From an uncultured Caryophanales bacterium (GTDB taxonomy: Bacteria; Bacillota_I; Bacilli_A; RFN20; CAG-449), in NCBI GenBank assembly GCA_945929875.1, contig CAMEOO010000010.1, forward strand, positions 1 to 34,788: DNA of 34,788 nt. The letters run 5' to 3'. Made by a program: the position numbers and the translations under genes. Positions within the stretch are counted from its first letter, which is position 1. Each line of letters begins with the position of its first letter. The notes beneath the pieces are model-generated. The model worked only from the letters and a program-made list of their open reading frames with translations, had not been told where the DNA came from and did no database searches. Positions 26,264 to 34,788 of this stretch are shown here, piece by piece.

Positions 26264-27148
26264 ATGAAAATTATTCAACTTCAATACTTTGTGGAAGTAG
26301 TCAAATCCAACAACATTTCTAAAGCGGCAAAAAAGTTGTACGTTTCTCAACCAGCGATATCTACGGCTATAAAGGAACTAGAAAAGGAGTTTAACACAAC
26401 TTTATTTATCCGTTACAACAATCAACTTACCCTAACTGACGAAGGCCATTTTTTATATGTTCAAGCAGTAAAATTATTACAAGAATTCGATAAAGTTCAC
26501 GACGATATGATGTCGTATGTTAAAAAGACAGAAATCTTAAAAATAGGTATTCCACCAATGATTGGAACCTTCTTTGTTCCTAAGATTTTAGATGAGTTTA
26601 CTAAAGATCACCCTCATGTTGAATTTCAATTAATTGAGCTTGCTTCTAAAGCAAACCGAGAAGCGATGATTAATCAAGAAATATCTTTAGGATTGACAGT
26701 AAAAGAGAAAAAAGAGGCTTTTCCTGAGTCTTTAAACTACCATAAAGTAGTAAATACTACTTTATTATTCGTGGTAAATAAGAATCATCCTCTAGCTAAA
26801 AAGAAAGTAATCGATATTCCTGATTTAGATAATGTTCCTTTAGTTTTAATGAAAGAAGATGCTTTACAATCTTCGCTAGTTCAAAAAGCGTTTGAAAAAA
26901 ATAATACTCATTTGAATATCAAACTTAGAACTAATCAATTATATACAATTAAAGAATTATTAAATAGAAACTACTTAGGCGCTTTTATTTTTAATCAATT
27001 AATCGAAAAGGAACCTAACCTTGTAGGGATTCCTTTAAAGCATCCTATCGATCTAGAAATTGTGATCGCTTGGAGAAAAGATATTCCTTTAAAAGATGTC
27101 AGTCAGGATTTTTTAAATTACATGCTTAGCTATTCTCTAGAAGGTTAA
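26264..27148 (+). CDS. LysR-family transcriptional regulator
   Basis: The 294-residue protein has a winged helix-turn-helix at 1-60 (FVEVVKSNNISKAAKKLYVSQPAISTAIKELEKEF) and a periplasmic-binding-like effector domain from about 90 to 290. It is a full-length LTTR, similar in layout to CynR/GltC/CitR types. There is no SD; the promoter abuts the ATG. A perfect inverted repeat at the promoter suggests it represses itself. It lies upstream of malic enzyme on the same strand, and a partial copy of its operator precedes that gene's promoter, so malic enzyme is the most likely target. A carboxylate effector would fit but is inferred. Confidence 0.92.
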   Translation: MKIIQLQYFVEVVKSNNISKAAKKLYVSQPAISTAIKELEKEFNTTLFIRYNNQLTLTDEGHFLYVQAVKLLQEFDKVHDDMMSYVKKTEILKIGIPPMIGTFFVPKILDEFTKDHPHVEFQLIELASKANREAMINQEISLGLTVKEKKEAFPESLNYHKVVNTTLLFVVNKNHPLAKKKVIDIPDLDNVPLVLMKEDALQSSLVQKAFEKNNTHLNIKLRTNQLYTIKELLNRNYLGAFIFNQLIEKEPNLVGIPLKHPIDLEIVIAWRKDIPLKDVSQDFLNYMLSYSLEG

Positions 27149-27170: not shown

Positions 27171-27238
27171 AAGCAAATTTTATTTCATTTTTTGATTATA
27201 TTCAAACTACAAAAATATGGAAGAATTTGCTTTTTTTA
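27171..27238 (+). terminator. Possible terminator of the LysR gene
   Basis: AAGCAAATT (27171-27179) pairs with AATTTGCTT (27224-27232) and is followed by a T run, but the loop is 44 nt, so efficiency is doubtful. Confidence 0.35.
27201..27222. promoter_or_regulatory. Candidate LysR activation site upstream of malic enzyme
   Basis: TATGGAA (27216-27222) repeats the right half of the LysR-gene operator, and TTC at 27201-27203 gives a degenerate left half. Its centre is about 68 bp upstream of the predicted malic enzyme transcript start, near where LTTR activators bind. Confidence 0.35.
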
Positions 27239-27345: not shown

Positions 27346-28518
27346 ATGTCAATTTATGATGATTCATTAAAGCAACACTATATGTGGAAAGGAAAATTTG
27401 AAACTCGTTCGAGAGTAGAAGTTGACACTAATGAAAAGTTGATGCTTGCTTATACTCCAGGAGTAGCTCAAGCTTGCCTTGAAATTCAAAAGGATGTCAA
27501 CAAATCTTACGAATTAACAAGAAGGTGGAATTCAGTAGCCATCATTACCGATGGAACGGCAATTTTGGGTTTAGGTGATATCGGCCCTGAAGCCGGCATG
27601 CCAGTCATGGAAGGTAAAGCTGCATTATTTAAGACATTTGGAGATGTCGATTGCTTCCCACTTTGTTTAAGAACTAAGGATACTGATGAAATTGTTAGAA
27701 CGATTCAAATTTTATGTGGTTCCTTTGGAGGGATTAACCTAGAAGATATTTCTGCACCTAGATGTTTTGAAATTGAAAGAAGATTAAAAGAAACTTGCGA
27801 TATCCCAGTTTTCCATGACGATCAACATGGAACGGCAATTGTCGTAGGTGCCGCGACTTTAAATGCATTAAAAATTGTTAAGAAAAATATTAATGATATT
27901 ACTTGCGTAATTAATGGCGCTGGAGCGGCTGGAATCTCAATAGGTAAATTCCTTCTTAGATTGGGAGCTAAAGATGTTATCTTTTGCGACAAGCAAGGGA
28001 TCATCTATGAAGGAATGGAAAATTTAAATCCAGCCCAAGAAGAAGTATCTCACATTTCAAATAAGAGACACCTTAAAGGATTATTAAAAGACGCTTTAAT
28101 AGGCGCAGATCTATTTGTTGGAGTTTCCGCTCCAAGATTAGTAACTAAAGAGATGATTCAAACGATGGCAAAAGATCCAATCGTCTTCCCTCTTGCTAAT
28201 CCAGTTCCAGAAATTACTCCTGAAGAAGCAAAACTTGGAGGAGCAAGAATCATTGGTACAGGATCAAGCCAATATCCTAATCAAATCAATAACGTTTTAG
28301 TTTTCCCAGGAGTCTTTAGAGGCGCCTTAGATGCTAGAGCTAAAGATATCAACATGGAAATGATGATCGCTGCTTCTAAAGCAATCGCTAGTATGGTTGA
28401 TGAAAGTGAGTTAAACGAAAACTATATCATTCCTTCTGCAACAAATAAGAAAGTACATGAGAAAGTTGCTCAAGCGGTAAAAGAAATGGCAATAGAAACT
28501 CATGTAAATAGGATTTAG
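27346..28518 (+). CDS. Malic enzyme (oxaloacetate-decarboxylating malate dehydrogenase)
   Basis: It converts malate to pyruvate and CO2 with reduction of NAD(P). The 390-residue short bacterial form has catalytic Y36 in [11 protein letters not shown]91 in MEGKAA, metal-site FHDDQHGTA, a GAGAAGI nucleotide-binding loop, and PLANPVPEI. Preference for NAD or NADP was not determined. The start at 27346 has SD GAGGA; upstream in-frame ATGs such as 27217 overlap the promoter. It is preceded by a LysR gene and its stop abuts the start of a lipoprotein gene, so it heads an operon of five genes. Confidence 0.93.
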
Positions 28519-28521
28519 ATG

Positions 28522-29745
28522 ATGAAGAGAAAAACGATAAAATTATTTATAAGCTTATTTAGTTTAGTTTGCCTATGTGGATGTTCAAATAAAAGTGATG
28601 GTGTCAATAAAGGGTTTGATAATCAGACTTACGACATTTCAAAAAGTAACGACAATTCAGTCACCGTTACTATTAATAAAATAGAAGAAAAGGGCACATT
28701 TAAGTTAACTCTTACAGGAAATGGAGAAACTAAAGACTTCTCAAGTGAAGAAAAAGTTCCTTGGTTTTCAATCGCTAGAAAAGTTTCAGAAGTTGAAATA
28801 AATGAAGGAATCACTTATTTAGGAAATGAAATATTTAATAAGCTGACCTTAGATTCATTCATCACTCCTTCTAGCGTAGTTAAAATTAGTTCAACTTCAT
28901 TTAAAGACGACGTAAAAGTTTATAGCTACGCTTCTGAAGTGGAAAGCAAAGGAAAATTTTCAATTTACTACTATAAAGAAAATCGACCTTCAGATAGTGA
29001 AGCTAAAGTTAATACCTACTGGAGAATGGTTAACGATAGCCCTATCGTTTGGGTAATCGCACCAATTAAAGCTCTATTTGTTGGAAATAGCTTTACTTAC
29101 TATAACGATATCCCTTCATTGACGCAAAATATCTGTCGAGACCTAGGATATGACATAACCATCGATAGCATTACTAAAGGAGCGCATACCTTAGAAAAAT
29201 TTGCTGATAAAAATGATGAGTTTGGAAGTCAAGTATACGCAAAGTTAAATTCAACTAATAATTACGATTATTTGATCTTACAAGAGCAATCAACAAGAAG
29301 CTATGAAAATTACGATAGTTTTAAAAAAGGTGTCACGGGATTAAAGAATTTATCCGATTCTACTCAAAAGAATTGTGAAGTTAGATTATATGCTACTTGG
29401 GGATTTGATTTAGATAATTCGGAAAATAAGAAAAACGTCATTACTGCAATGGAAGCAAAAGTAAACGAATACTATACAAAGCTTTCAAACGAACTCAATT
29501 TAAAAATTCATCAAGTTGGTAAAGCCTTCACTAAAGCTTTCTTAGAACATAATGAAATCAATCTTTATCACACAGATTATCGACACCCATCATATGCAGG
29601 AAGTTATCTATCCGCTTTGGTTCATGCGGGAAGCTTAACTGGCCACGATGTTAGATTAACAAATTTTAATGGCGATGGTTCAATTAGTGAAACAGATGCA
29701 AACACTTTAAAAGAAGTCGCTTATTCAATCTTAAATAATAAATAG
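28522..29745 (+). CDS. Lipoprotein with SGNH-hydrolase (DUF4886-like) domain
   Basis: The signal peptide ends at lipobox LCGC. Counting from the preceding ATG at 28519, this Cys is residue 22. A beta-rich N-terminal region (about 35-170), including VSEVEINEGITYLGNEIF and FITPSSVVKISSTSF, resembles BspA-like leucine-rich repeats. The C-terminal domain is SGNH-type: FVGNSFTYYNDIP with putative nucleophile S191, and DYRH with D353 and H356. SGNH enzymes are often esterases or deacetylases of cell-surface or dietary glycans. The second ATG (28522) has the better SD spacing (AGGA). The gene starts directly after the malic enzyme stop and is followed by two repeat-domain lipoproteins. The substrate is unknown. 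Confidence 0.75.
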   Translation: MKRKTIKLFISLFSLVCLCGCSNKSDGVNKGFDNQTYDISKSNDNSVTVTINKIEEKGTFKLTLTGNGETKDFSSEEKVPWFSIARKVSEVEINEGITYLGNEIFNKLTLDSFITPSSVVKISSTSFKDDVKVYSYASEVESKGKFSIYYYKENRPSDSEAKVNTYWRMVNDSPIVWVIAPIKALFVGNSFTYYNDIPSLTQNICRDLGYDITIDSITKGAHTLEKFADKNDEFGSQVYAKLNSTNNYDYLILQEQSTRSYENYDSFKKGVTGLKNLSDSTQKNCEVRLYATWGFDLDNSENKKNVITAMEAKVNEYYTKLSNELNLKIHQVGKAFTKAFLEHNEINLYHTDYRHPSYAGSYLSALVHAGSLTGHDVRLTNFNGDGSISETDANTLKEVAYSILNNK

Positions 29746-29763
29746 AAAGGAGTAAAAATATTT

Positions 29764-31122
29764 ATGAAAAAGAGAAGAATTCCATTAGTTATTTGTTCAT
29801 TATTATTAGTTGGAGGATTAACTGCTTGTTCTCCAAATGAAGTTCCTTCAAGCATTCCTTCAGATGATCAAAGTTCATCGATTGTAGTTAATTCTTATTT
29901 AGTTAGCTTTTTAGTTGATGGAGAACTATATAAAACCGCTCAAGTTAAAGAAGGAGAAACAGTAACAAATATTATCGATAATCCAACAAAAGAAGGATAT
30001 GAATTTGCTGGTTGGAAACTAGAAGATAATACTGAATTTAATTTAGAAACTACTGTAGTTACTTCAAATTTAAATGTAATTGCTACATTTACCAAAAAAG
30101 TAGAAACTAATCCAGGTGGAGGAGAAACTCAAACTACTATTAGTGTTGAAGATGTAAAAGATCCAACTAAAGAATACTCAATCGTAATCGGTTGGTATGG
30201 AAAATCCGCTACATCAGGTTTAGATGTAGACGTTATGAAAGTATTCGCAGATAACCTAGTAAAATTCTTAAAAGCAAAAGGTGTCAGCGATGAAGATATT
30301 GCAAAAGTTTCAATTCGTCGTTATGGAGATGCAGACACAAACGTTGGACCAATGGGTGAATTAATTAATGCCGATGGAGATTGTGATTTATTATTAGGCG
30401 TAGGTAAAAATATTACATCCACTGGTTTAGTTGAAGTAGTGGAAAAGCAAGAAGGTATTACCATGGGAGGTGCCTCTAGATATATCGCTAGAGTAACTGA
30501 CACTAAACAAATCGTAAAAGATTTATATGATTTCATTATTTCTGTAAATGCAGATAACTCAATGTTCTTAAATACATTCGTAGTACCTGAAAGTATAAAT
30601 AACCCTGGTGCAAATCCAGGAGATAACCCAGGAACAGGAGACCAAGAAACTACTCTTAATGTCGAAGATGTTAAAGATTCTTCTAAAGAGTATTCAATCG
30701 TAATCGGTTGGTATGGAAAATCTGCTACTTCTGGACTTGATGTAGAAGTAATGAAGGTTTTTGCAGATAACCTAGTAAAATTCTTAAAAGCAAAAGGTGT
30801 TAGTAACGAAGACATTGCAAAAGTATCAATTCGTCGTTATGGAGATGCAGACACAAACGTTGGACCAATGGGTGTATTAATTAACGCTGATGGAGATTGC
30901 GACATTCTTCTTGGAGTAGGATCAAATATCGATGATCCAGCAAAAGGTAATGTAACCGTTGTTGAAAAACAAGGTGATGTCACAATGGGTGGAAAACCTA
31001 GATATATCGCTAGAGTAACCGACACAAAACAAATCGTAAAAGATCTATACGATTTCATCATTTCTTCAAACGCTGATAATTCAATGTTCTTGGATACATT
31101 TGTAGCTCCAACTAACGCATAA
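29764..31122 (+). CDS. Lipoprotein with InlB-like repeat and two tandem copies of an unrecognised domain
   Basis: The 452-residue protein has a lipobox (LTAC, Cys22) and a Ser/Pro/Asp spacer. An InlB/Flg_new-type beta-grasp repeat follows (about 45-112, with EGYEFAGWKLEDNTEF and NVIATFTKK). Then come two nearly identical domains of about 150 residues (124-275 and 296-449), joined by an Asn/Pro/Gly linker. Each domain has the core IGWYGKSATSGL, SIRRYGDADTNVGPMG, LLGVG and RYIARVTDTKQIVKDLYDF. I could not assign the domain; a single lobe of a binding-protein-like fold is one possibility. SD AAAGGAG lies before a non-coding start offset at 29764. A related single copy is in the next gene. Confidence 0.7.
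   Translation: MKKRRIPLVICSLLLVGGLTACSPNEVPSSIPSDDQSSSIVVNSYLVSFLVDGELYKTAQVKEGETVTNIIDNPTKEGYEFAGWKLEDNTEFNLETTVVTSNLNVIATFTKKVETNPGGGETQTTISVEDVKDPTKEYSIVIGWYGKSATSGLDVDVMKVFADNLVKFLKAKGVSDEDIAKVSIRRYGDADTNVGPMGELINADGDCDLLLGVGKNITSTGLVEVVEKQEGITMGGASRYIARVTDTKQIVKDLYDFIISVNADNSMFLNTFVVPESINNPGANPGDNPGTGDQETTLNVEDVKDSSKEYSIVIGWYGKSATSGLDVEVMKVFADNLVKFLKAKGVSNEDIAKVSIRRYGDADTNVGPMGVLINADGDCDILLGVGSNIDDPAKGNVTVVEKQGDVTMGGKPRYIARVTDTKQIVKDLYDFIISSNADNSMFLDTFVAPTNA
30133..30588 (+). repeat. Intragenic domain repeat, copy 1
   Basis: A 456-bp in-frame unit encodes the first copy of the IGWYGKSATSGL domain. It shares long identical runs with copy 2, including about 38 bp over the DNLVKFLKAKG codons and about 49 bp over the SIRRYGDADTNVGPMG codons. 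This points to a recent duplication or gene conversion. Confidence 0.9.
30649..31110 (+). repeat. Intragenic domain repeat, copy 2
   Basis: A 462-bp in-frame unit is the second copy. It differs from copy 1 mainly at synonymous sites and in the segment after LLGVG (NIDDPAKGN against NITSTG). Confidence 0.9.
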
Positions 31123-31132
31123 GGAGGATATC

Positions 31133-31894
31133 ATGAAAATAAAGAAACTATTAGTTATTCCTTTGATGCTATTCAGCTTATCAGGCTGTTCACTAGCTAA
31201 GGGTCTAGAAAAAAATGTAAATGTGGTATTTGAATATAAAGGAGAAATCCTTTCAAGTGGCACAGTCAACCAATTTAAAAATATCTTGGCCCCTTCATTA
31301 ACTGACGCTCAAATTCCAGTAAATTGCGAATTCTTTGGTTGGACTTGGTACAATCCAAATGCAGTGGATATTACCGCTGAAAATTTTGATGAAAAGTATA
31401 TTGAACCAGATGGCCTAGTTCGCTATGACATATTAAAAGATTATGTTGAAGGAGAAACCATTACTTTAAGACCGCTATTCTTCAATGAAGCGGATATTCC
31501 AGTTCCTGAATACTACATTGCTATTGGATGGTATGCTAAAACCTCTACTTCAGGACTAAGCGAAGAAAAGATTAACGCTTGGGTTGAAGATTTAAAAGCC
31601 TTCTTATTAACTCAAGGTGCTACTCAAGAAGACTTGAATAATATTAAGATTACCCCTTATGTTGGCGATGTTGCTACTTCTGGAAGCCAAGTTAGCAAAG
31701 ATCGTTACAACGACATCTTACTTGGATGGGGTGGAAACTTAACTTCTACAGGTGGAGTTACTACTTTAGATCATATCGGCGGTATTGATATGAGTGGTAA
31801 ATCTAGATATATTTCAAGATTAACCGATAAAGAAATTGCTATAAAAGTATTTAAATGGTTACAAACTGATGAAGGAAATCAGGCATTCCGCTAG
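31133..31894 (+). CDS. Lipoprotein with one diverged copy of the same domain
   Basis: The 253-residue protein has a lipobox (LSGC, Cys19) and an InlB-like region (about 25-120, with VNCEFFGWTWYN and ITLRPLFFNE). One domain follows (about 124-253) related to the repeats of the preceding gene: IGWYAKTSTSGL, ITPYVGDVATSG, ILLGWGGNLTSTGG and MSGKSRYISRLTD are aligned. Sequence divergence is much larger than between the tandem copies, so this is an older split. SD GGAGG supports the start, 10 bp after the preceding stop. It is probably exported and lipid-anchored, working with its neighbours at the surface. Function is unknown. Confidence 0.7.
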   Translation: MKIKKLLVIPLMLFSLSGCSLAKGLEKNVNVVFEYKGEILSSGTVNQFKNILAPSLTDAQIPVNCEFFGWTWYNPNAVDITAENFDEKYIEPDGLVRYDILKDYVEGETITLRPLFFNEADIPVPEYYIAIGWYAKTSTSGLSEEKINAWVEDLKAFLLTQGATQEDLNNIKITPYVGDVATSGSQVSKDRYNDILLGWGGNLTSTGGVTTLDHIGGIDMSGKSRYISRLTDKEIAIKVFKWLQTDEGNQAFR

Positions 31895-31903
31895 GAGGTA
31901 AAA

Positions 31904-34300
31904 ATGAGAACAAGAAAAAATTTAATTAAGGCAAGTGCGATAGTTGGATATGTATCAAGTTTCATGTACATTCTTTTAACAGCATGCTATTTCGCTTTAT
32001 CAAACTCTATATACTGGCTATTCTTAGTATTAGCAGCTATCACTTTATATAACTCACTATATTCTTCTTGCATTAGAAGAAATCTAGATGATGAAAAACT
32101 AGAAGGAAAATTAAAAACAAAATTTTTAGTTAACACGATTATTTCTATCGTTTCACCTATTTCTTTAATCTTAAATTTAACTGCTTACTTATGGAAAAAG
32201 GAAGATAGATTTATCGAAGTAGCTAATCCAGAATTTAAAATTGAAGTAAAAGAGAAAAAAGAAAAGAAATTCTTTAAAAAAGCAAACTTCGTATTAACTG
32301 TAGCAGGGTTAGTAGCAATTATTGCTGGATCATTTAGTGCAAATATTGCCGAAACTAGCTCTTATTCAGTAAAAGTAAGAGATTTCACTTTAACTAAAGA
32401 AATGACTGAACAATATAACGCGGGGGAAGCTAATAAATTAAATGGCAAGAACTACGTCATTGAAAATGATTGCTTAACTTATGGAGTTACTGAATTTAAA
32501 CCAAAGAATGCAACTCAATCAAATCCTCTTCCAGTTATCTTTGTAATGCCTGGCTTTACAAGAACTAAAGCAACTATGGCTCAATATGCAATTGAATTAT
32601 CAAGAAGAGGCGCGGTAGTATTTGTTATTGACCCAGGATGTCAAGGATCTACTACTTATGCTGGTTACACAGAAACTGAAACTGGAGAAAAAGAACAAGT
32701 TTCCGCAACAGTTGGAGCTAATGGACTTGATTATCTAGTTCAATACGTCTTCAATAATACCGACGAATTTACTTATATCGACCGCGAAAACTTTGGCGCT
32801 GTCGGCCACTCTGCGGGTGGAGGAAACGTCGGTCAACTTGCTCAAGATTTCGCTGGCAATTCTTATGAAGAATCTATCATTAAAGCTGTATATCTATCTG
32901 GATATATTAAGAACTCTTTAGCTAATCGCTTTAAGAGTTTAAGATGTAACGCTGCTATGAGCTATGCTTACTATGATGAAGGTGCATTCCGTTATCAAAG
33001 CGATGTTAGTTCATTTGAATTAGTCGCAAAACGTTTCGTCAATGAAATCAATGGAAAAGATCTTGGTATTGGTGAAGCGATCATCGATTACGAATATGGC
33101 AGTATGAGTGATGGAACTTACAGAGTAGTTCACCGCGAACAAACCAATCACTGCTTTGAAATGTATGACACTTTATCAATTTCAAATACGATCAATTTCT
33201 TTAGAAGAACTTTAAATTTAAACACTAATTTAAGCGATTCAAACCACACATGGATGTTTAAAGAAGGATCAAATGGCATCGCTTTAGTTGGCGCATTCGT
33301 ATTCATCATCTCACTAATGAGCTTACTTATCGATACAGTTCCTCTATTCAAGAGCTTCAAAGTAGCTAGAGAAGTTTCAGCAAATTATGAATTTGAACAA
33401 AAAGTTAAATATGGAACACTTCCAACAAACGATCCTTCAAAACTAGCAAAGAAGAGATTCATCGACAAGGTAGTCTTCTGGAGCGTAACTGCTTTATCAG
33501 CGATAATCGCTTGTTTAGATTACATTCCTCTTGCTAGATTATCGATGGAATTATTTCCAGATGCTGCAGGCAATACCTACACCTTCTTCTTCCCAGCAAG
33601 AATGATGAATGCAGTTATGTTATGGGCGGTAGTAAATGGAACAATCGGCTTTATCCTAGTCTTTGGAGTTAAAGCTATTGAAAACTTAGTCTATAAATTA
33701 ACAAATCACCCAGAATACATTTCTTGGTATAGATTTAAACAAATGAAGATCAACTGGAAAGACTTATTATTAACATTAGGCTTAGTAATTGGTTTATTCT
33801 TAGTATTCTATGGCTTAGATCATTTGATGTATGCAATCTTCCATCAAGATTTCAGATTTATGTTAATTAGCGCTGCACCACTTCAACCTAGATATATCGT
33901 CACCTGGTTAATTTATTTAATTCCTTTCTTTATTTTCTATTTATCAAATTCAGTCAGAGTCAATTTATCTGTTGCAACTGAAGGATGGAGCGAAACTAAA
34001 ACATATATCGCTTCAGCGATATTTAATTCGATAGGACTAGCATTTATCATCGTCATCAATTACGTTTGCTACTTTAAAACTGGCACGGTATTCTATGGAT
34101 ACTATTCACCAAAAGACACTAGTGAAATGTGGTTATACATCAATATGGTATTTGGTATTATCCCAATGATGTTTGTTCTACCTATCATCAATCGCTTCGC
34201 TTATAAGAAGAGTGGAAATGTATACTTAGGAGCTCTTCTAACTGTTATGATCTTTATCATGATGAGTTTATCTGCTTCAGTATCTTATATTCCAATGTAA
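31904..34300 (+). CDS. Polytopic membrane protein with embedded alpha/beta hydrolase domain
   Basis: The 798-residue protein has three parts. An N-terminal membrane region (segments about 11-30, 36-52, 80-98 and 128-147) leads into a soluble alpha/beta-hydrolase domain (about 150-440). That domain has VIFVMPGFTRTKATMAQYA and the nucleophile elbow GHSAGGG (S303), with a late HCFEMYD that could hold the catalytic His. The C-terminal half has about eight further membrane segments (from about 450). With four N-terminal segments the hydrolase domain should face one side of the membrane, likely outside, but this was not computed. No known family covers the whole architecture. SD AGGAGG supports the start, 9 bp after the previous stop. 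It ends the operon. Confidence 0.75.
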   Translation: MRTRKNLIKASAIVGYVSSFMYILLTACYFALSNSIYWLFLVLAAITLYNSLYSSCIRRNLDDEKLEGKLKTKFLVNTIISIVSPISLILNLTAYLWKKEDRFIEVANPEFKIEVKEKKEKKFFKKANFVLTVAGLVAIIAGSFSANIAETSSYSVKVRDFTLTKEMTEQYNAGEANKLNGKNYVIENDCLTYGVTEFKPKNATQSNPLPVIFVMPGFTRTKATMAQYAIELSRRGAVVFVIDPGCQGSTTYAGYTETETGEKEQVSATVGANGLDYLVQYVFNNTDEFTYIDRENFGAVGHSAGGGNVGQLAQDFAGNSYEESIIKAVYLSGYIKNSLANRFKSLRCNAAMSYAYYDEGAFRYQSDVSSFELVAKRFVNEINGKDLGIGEAIIDYEYGSMSDGTYRVVHREQTNHCFEMYDTLSISNTINFFRRTLNLNTNLSDSNHTWMFKEGSNGIALVGAFVFIISLMSLLIDTVPLFKSFKVAREVSANYEFEQKVKYGTLPTNDPSKLAKKRFIDKVVFWSVTALSAIIACLDYIPLARLSMELFPDAAGNTYTFFFPARMMNAVMLWAVVNGTIGFILVFGVKAIENLVYKLTNHPEYISWYRFKQMKINWKDLLLTLGLVIGLFLVFYGLDHLMYAIFHQDFRFMLISAAPLQPRYIVTWLIYLIPFFIFYLSNSVRVNLSVATEGWSETKTYIASAIFNSIGLAFIIVINYVCYFKTGTVFYGYYSPKDTSEMWLYINMVFGIIPMMFVLPIINRFAYKKSGNVYLGALLTVMIFIMMSLSASVSYIPM

Positions 34301-34628: not shown

Positions 34629-34788
34629 TGAAAGGTAAGTTTTTAAATATATTTATATTTATATTTTTAGTGTTTTCATTAGTAGGATGTGCTGGTAAAC
34701 AAGGTCCAGTAGGTCCTCAAGGAGAACAAGGTATTCAAGGTGAAAAAGGAGATACTGGCGAACCTGGAAATGATGGTGTAGGTGTTGA
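34629..34788 (+). CDS. Collagen-like lipoprotein, 5' part only
   Basis: The gene is cut by the window edge after 53 codons. It begins with a short signal peptide ending in lipobox SLVGC (Cys21) and moves straight into Gly-X-Y triplets (GPV, GPQ, GEQ, GIQ, GEK, GDT, GEP, GND), the collagen triple-helix repeat. Such bacterial collagen-like proteins form surface stalks or adhesins. SD TTGGAGG lies 10 nt before the ATG. It is separate from the envelope operon because of two terminators and its own promoter. Confidence 0.85.

Follow-up and report, generated by a model that had tools for sequence, protein, structure and literature searches.

Closest described systems

The described system closest to the locus studied here is the mle locus (MleR, MleS, MleP), in which the LysR-type regulator MleR, with L-malate as co-inducer, controls the genes for malolactic enzyme and a malate permease (PMC2834670). 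As in mle, a LysR gene adjoins here an L-malate-consuming gene of the malic-enzyme family and a gene encoding a membrane protein. In contrast to mle, the enzyme is a malic enzyme and not a malolactic enzyme, no MleP-type permease is present, and hydrolases and lipoproteins carrying a shared domain, called D below, are added.

The individual proteins also resemble known families. Characterised SGNH hydrolase families have carbohydrates as their main substrates, and DUF4886 (PF16227) had no member of known function as of a 2022 review (PMC9487903). The SGNH lipoprotein of our locus has its catalytic blocks in common with DUF4886, but it scores under the Pfam cut-off (26.7) and carries an additional LRR_5-like N-terminal part. 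The membrane hydrolase, hereafter HYD, shares its fold, a Ser-Asp-His triad and a GHSAGG nucleophile elbow with the clan of cutinases, PETase, MHETase and ferulic acid esterases; it differs in having an identity of 12-18% to its top fold matches and in being fused to a membrane segment at the N-terminus and, at the C-terminus, to about nine helices that carry conserved polar residues. Type 2 periplasmic binding proteins (ModA, FbpA, PtxB), which are weak fold matches of a D lipoprotein, are two-lobed, whereas domain D, with about 130 residues, has the size of one lobe.

Layout of the operon

The window, i.e., the whole stretch of 34,788 nucleotides analysed here, comes from an uncultured Caryophanales bacterium and contains the following features:

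26264..27148, + strand, LysR-type transcriptional regulator (Pfam HTH_1 and LysR_substrate, well above cut-off)
27346..28518, + strand, malic enzyme (MAE), NAD(P)-dependent (Pfam malic and Malic_M)
28519-29745, + strand, gene 1, SGNH lipoprotein, 408 aa
29764-31122, + strand, gene 2, two-D lipoprotein, 452 aa
31133-31894, + strand, gene 3, single-D lipoprotein, 253 aa
31904-34300, + strand, gene 4, HYD, 798 aa
34325-34358, + strand, intrinsic terminator-like hairpin with T-run (-14 kcal/mol, z -4.1 against shuffles)

Genes 1 to 4 are separated by gaps of 18, 10 and 9 bp, and gene 1 starts 0 bp from the stop of the malic enzyme gene at 28518. The latter gene probably starts at 27346 and not at 27217, since homologues of 382-395 amino acids begin at that methionine, which leaves a gap of 197 bp to the co-directional LysR gene, the probable regulator of the operon. 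The hairpin located 3' of HYD closes the operon; a promoter scan found fewer sites than in shuffles. The description of genes 1 to 4 as close-packed and encoding exported or membrane proteins, given in an earlier sequence-only reading, is thus accurate: genes 1, 2 and 3 encode lipoprotein signal peptides, with lipoboxes LCGC, LTAC and LSGC, respectively, and HYD has many hydrophobic helices. Neither Pfam nor NCBIfam recognised a permease in the four genes.

The MAE-SGNH-D-HYD unit is conserved

We collected 66 loci, the window plus 65 related loci of uncultured Bacilli, Clostridia and Spirochaetales, the latter 65 having been retrieved from named genomes by scanning with a malate-type HYD alignment. 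Many of these 65 loci belong to rumen or other herbivore-gut genomes. A D protein is encoded directly upstream of HYD in all 61 loci in which upstream DNA is present, mostly with a spacing of 3-19 bp or with overlapping genes. The malic enzyme gene is present in 49 of the 65 named loci, usually at one end of the unit, first or last (cut contigs account for some of the remaining loci), the SGNH gene in 45 and the LysR gene, usually divergent, in 40. Some loci lack SGNH, whose place can be taken by a CE2-type esterase, and in others SGNH and D are fused into a single protein. The order varies: Bacilli have LysR / SGNH-D-D-HYD-MAE, many Clostridia LysR / MAE-SGNH-D-HYD, and Spirochaetales SGNH-D-HYD without MAE. 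This presence of the same members in shuffled orders argues for a functional linkage rather than inherited adjacency. In addition, within a set of 58 relatives, gene 1, gene 4 and the malic enzyme gene adjoin the gene 3 homologue in each of the five genomes that have one (the window's among them).

The four genes had been proposed to form one module; since the unit recurs across genomes, this proposal stands, and no description of the set, of which the sequence-only reading likewise knew none, was found in Pfam, NCBIfam, PADLOC or the literature searched. The unit is real, conserved and undescribed in these sources. Its boundaries have to be redrawn: the malic enzyme, previously viewed as lying merely in front of a separate envelope module, is itself a conserved member of the unit, usually together with LysR.

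Two types of loci depart from this composition. Neither malic enzyme nor LysR genes are found near the spirochaetal SGNH-D-HYD clusters L201, L213, L217 and L219. In L206 (3750-12328) and L209 (3564-12337), D-HYD has in its vicinity genes for a LysR regulator, a PHB-depolymerase-like esterase and a DcuC C4-dicarboxylate carrier, in a locus without malic enzyme.

Predicted surface esterase and D lipoproteins

The gene 1 protein is composed of an N-terminal BspA-type (LRR_5-like) stretch followed by a DUF4886-like SGNH hydrolase, and its N- and C-terminal parts match the PDB entries 4h09 and 4s1p, respectively. Both the catalytic serine block (GNS) and the D-x-x-H block are present. The catalytic residues S191, D353 and H356 had been correctly placed: D353 and H356 are identical in 70 of 70 homologues and S191 in 69 of 70. 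Two orthologues pass the PF16227 cut-off (L058, 39.3; L211, 27.3), whereas that of L213 fails.

Gene 2 encodes a single InlB/Listeria-Bacteroides repeat (PF09479, E 3e-10) and two copies of domain D (residues 134-268 and 307-442), and gene 3 one C-terminal copy (residues 123-252). The copies are 40-41% identical, in agreement with the suggestion that the two proteins share a domain. Pfam matches of domain D to Pex14_N, BUD31 and RecX, as well as PDB sequence matches to designed proteins, were judged to be due to chance. The AlphaFold2 model of the gene 3 lipoprotein (pLDDT 93.8) has as best fold matches nearly exclusively type 2 periplasmic binding proteins and LysR effector domains. In this model, the resemblance of domain D to one lobe of a periplasmic anion-binding protein is weak; since no match is better than E 0.044, a putative one-lobe binding domain is a lead and not a result.

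HYD is a polytopic membrane protein with an alpha/beta hydrolase domain

HYD consists of N-terminal helices, a hydrolase domain (residues ~155-440) and about nine C-terminal helices. Foldseek analysis of its AlphaFold model (pLDDT 87.8, pTM 0.86) points to an alpha/beta hydrolase fold (best match E 2.5e-7, probability 1.00), with PETase, cutinase and ferulic acid esterase at E 2.5e-7 to 1e-6; lipases, including the monoacylglycerol lipase TTL, are also among the matches. A profile search, with MHETase at E 5e-16, is consistent with these fold matches; against the curated PETase profile PF12740, HYD reaches 20.9 bits, under the cut-off of 28. The previously highlighted S303 indeed lies in the GHSAGG elbow and is invariant, together with D358 and H416, in 47 family members. 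From its invariance and its place in the order of these residues, D358 is probably the triad acid. A lysine-rich segment (97-126) preceding the helix 127-150, and the single N-terminal anchor of shorter members, suggest that the hydrolase faces the outside of the cell.

The HYD family is divided according to catabolic partners

HYD belongs to a family without a name, present in 67 of the 279 genomes of our order search, whose clades split family-wide by catabolic partner. In a tree of 53 HYDs, the clades correspond to malic enzyme (31 rows), glycerol (7) and glycerate kinase (7), and the partner label changes 6 times, against 20.6 in shuffles (none of 200 shuffles was as low). Partners were identified by Pfam as malic enzyme, FGGY kinase, FAD oxidoreductases and glycerate kinase. 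HYDs of the glycerol clade neighbour genes for glycerol kinase and glycerol-3-phosphate oxidase (GlpO), the adjoining kinase also passing the glycerol kinase model TIGR01311. Outside the searched order, the same three partners occur in 10 of 15 loci (7 glycerol, 2 malic enzyme, 1 glycerate kinase); in the other 5, no partner was recognised. A fourth partner exists within the order, where a HYD-family gene directly follows araB-araD-araA of an L-arabinose operon (L137, 7990-14000). The immediate neighbour is a partner enzyme for 42 of 67 HYDs and for 8 of 73 other large genes in the fetched regions, figures that are a description and not a test, as these regions were picked for containing HYD or its kin. 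The association follows the clades, which implies few independent partner switches. Two tandem HYD-family genes, next to which no catabolic partner was recognised, are present in L065 (5804-10236).

The unit as a candidate malate-acquisition operon

The presence of HYD relatives beside catabolic genes and the conservation of the malic enzyme point to substrate acquisition for catabolism, more than to a surface system that remodels or senses a glycan or lipid polymer. We propose, as a reading that stands about evenly between right and wrong, that the window contains a malate-acquisition operon, in which exported esterases free malate from an ester and malic enzyme consumes it. At the cell surface, the D lipoproteins would bind either a compound that carries malate in ester linkage or the anion once freed; HYD would release malate, and the SGNH esterase would cut the same or an accompanying ester; malate would then enter the cell and be converted by malic enzyme into pyruvate, CO2 and NAD(P)H. 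We infer both the ester chemistry and malate as the freed product, the useful product of HYD being presumably whatever its partner enzyme consumes.

Several observations favour malate acquisition: the combination of MAE, SGNH, D and HYD recurs with changing gene order, HYD clades follow their partners, the relatives of HYD belong to an esterase clan, a CE2 esterase can stand in for SGNH, and the mle locus offers a parallel. PF00756 esterases are encoded beside or near some HYD-less malic enzyme genes. Red clover leaves contain 5-15 mmol/kg of caffeic acid derivatives including caffeoyl-malate (PMC7838361), a further support given the many loci from herbivore-gut genomes. Hydroxycinnamoyl-malates of forage plants are accordingly one plausible, though speculative, candidate for the natural ester in ruminants; present evidence does not set other malyl esters or a polyester below them, and a literature search on polymalate gave nothing specific. 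The proposal is weakened by the spirochaetal SGNH-D-HYD loci without adjoining malic enzyme, by the two loci in which a DcuC transporter and another esterase take its place, and by the curated Pfam cut-offs that the window HYD and SGNH proteins do not reach, as well as by the weak fold matches of D.

More speculatively, malate could be imported by the C-terminal membrane domain of HYD itself. In an extended form of this idea, which we consider doubtful, HYDs would be a family of hydrolase-permeases cutting an ester outside and importing the product through their own membrane domain, with branches for malate, glycerate, glycerol and L-arabinose according to partner and with one-lobe lipoproteins delivering the ester in the malate branch. 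HYD is not required for import in the window organism, whose genome encodes another possible malate permease (PF03547, contig C6). PF03547 is found in 36 of 279 genomes, including this one and some others with the module, and is uninformative on displacement.

Alternatively, transport could come first, the membrane domain carrying free malate, glycerate, glycerol or arabinose and the fused hydrolase broadening the diet or having a regulatory role. The membrane part does contain the near-invariant residues D649, R651, Y671 and Y720 (D649 and R651 differ only in a single arabinose-linked copy), and position 685 is K/R in 53 of 53 malate-clade and 8 of 8 glycerate-clade proteins, against 0 of 16 in the glycerol clade and 0 of 1 for arabinose, matching the charge of the substrates; this pattern, however, tracks the clades and thus represents very few independent changes. 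Similarly, the glycerol facilitator PF00230 is absent from 10 of 10 genomes with glycerol-type loci, with 96 of 279 genomes overall having it (Fisher p 0.017, uncorrected for relatedness and suggestive only), but many glycerol-kinase genomes lack both HYD and facilitator. A Foldseek search with the whole HYD model matched the hydrolase part alone and gave no transporter homologue, and the fully conserved catalytic triad indicates that hydrolysis is central. We regard a transport-first role as unlikely.

The sequence-only reading had tentatively suggested a surface system deacylating, trans-acylating or sensing a glycan or lipid polymer. The idea of deacylation survives; for a glycan target, the only support here is that the SGNH and CE2 families consist mainly of carbohydrate esterases. 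Envelope remodelling, in which both hydrolases would deacylate or trans-acylate a surface glycan bound by the D lipoproteins, would fit the lipoprotein location, the preference of characterised SGNH families for carbohydrates (PMC9487903) and the replacement of SGNH by CE2 esterases. It leaves unexplained the steady linkage to catabolic enzymes for malate, glycerol, glycerate and arabinose, and the conserved unit contains no recognisable gene for a glycosyltransferase or for polysaccharide export, making this explanation quite improbable; the unit makes better sense as an operon for malate-ester acquisition, with malic enzyme as a member, than as an envelope module.

We judge it very improbable that HYD is a lipase acting in or at the membrane on lipids or similar esters, from which it would free the head compound (glycerol, glycerate or malate). 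Its hydrolase is tethered near the membrane, TTL is among its fold matches and glycerol-clade members adjoin glycerol kinase and GlpO, but malate- or arabinose-bearing lipids are not known to be a common food source, and the presence of an additional soluble-type SGNH lipoprotein and of D proteins speaks for capture from outside. A role in anti-phage defence was rejected, as PADLOC models gave nothing convincing for the four-gene unit (only a 13-bit SIR2 match in gene 1).

If true, malate acquisition would provide a role for a so far unnamed family of membrane hydrolases found in uncultured Bacilli, Clostridia and Spirochaetales of the gut, a testable role for the malate-linked members of the function-unknown DUF4886 family, and a route for gut microbes to obtain C3/C4 acids and polyols from esters. 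As the partner enzymes name a candidate product for each HYD branch, the idea is testable by ordinary enzyme assays.

Other arrangements

In malic enzyme loci without HYD, further malate genes (fumarase, Ldh_2) are sometimes present, and a PF00756 esterase gene in a few. In L150 (2717-6623) and L151 (4375-8444), the malic enzyme gene is followed by one that encodes a homologue of lactate racemase (LarA), by one more gene and by a PF00756 esterase gene (Pfam-checked in L150), possibly a second arrangement for malate esters or for D-malate. At the end of the window (34630-34788), a lipoprotein gene begins whose product has collagen-like G-x-y repeats (GPVGPQGEQG) and which is cut by the window end.
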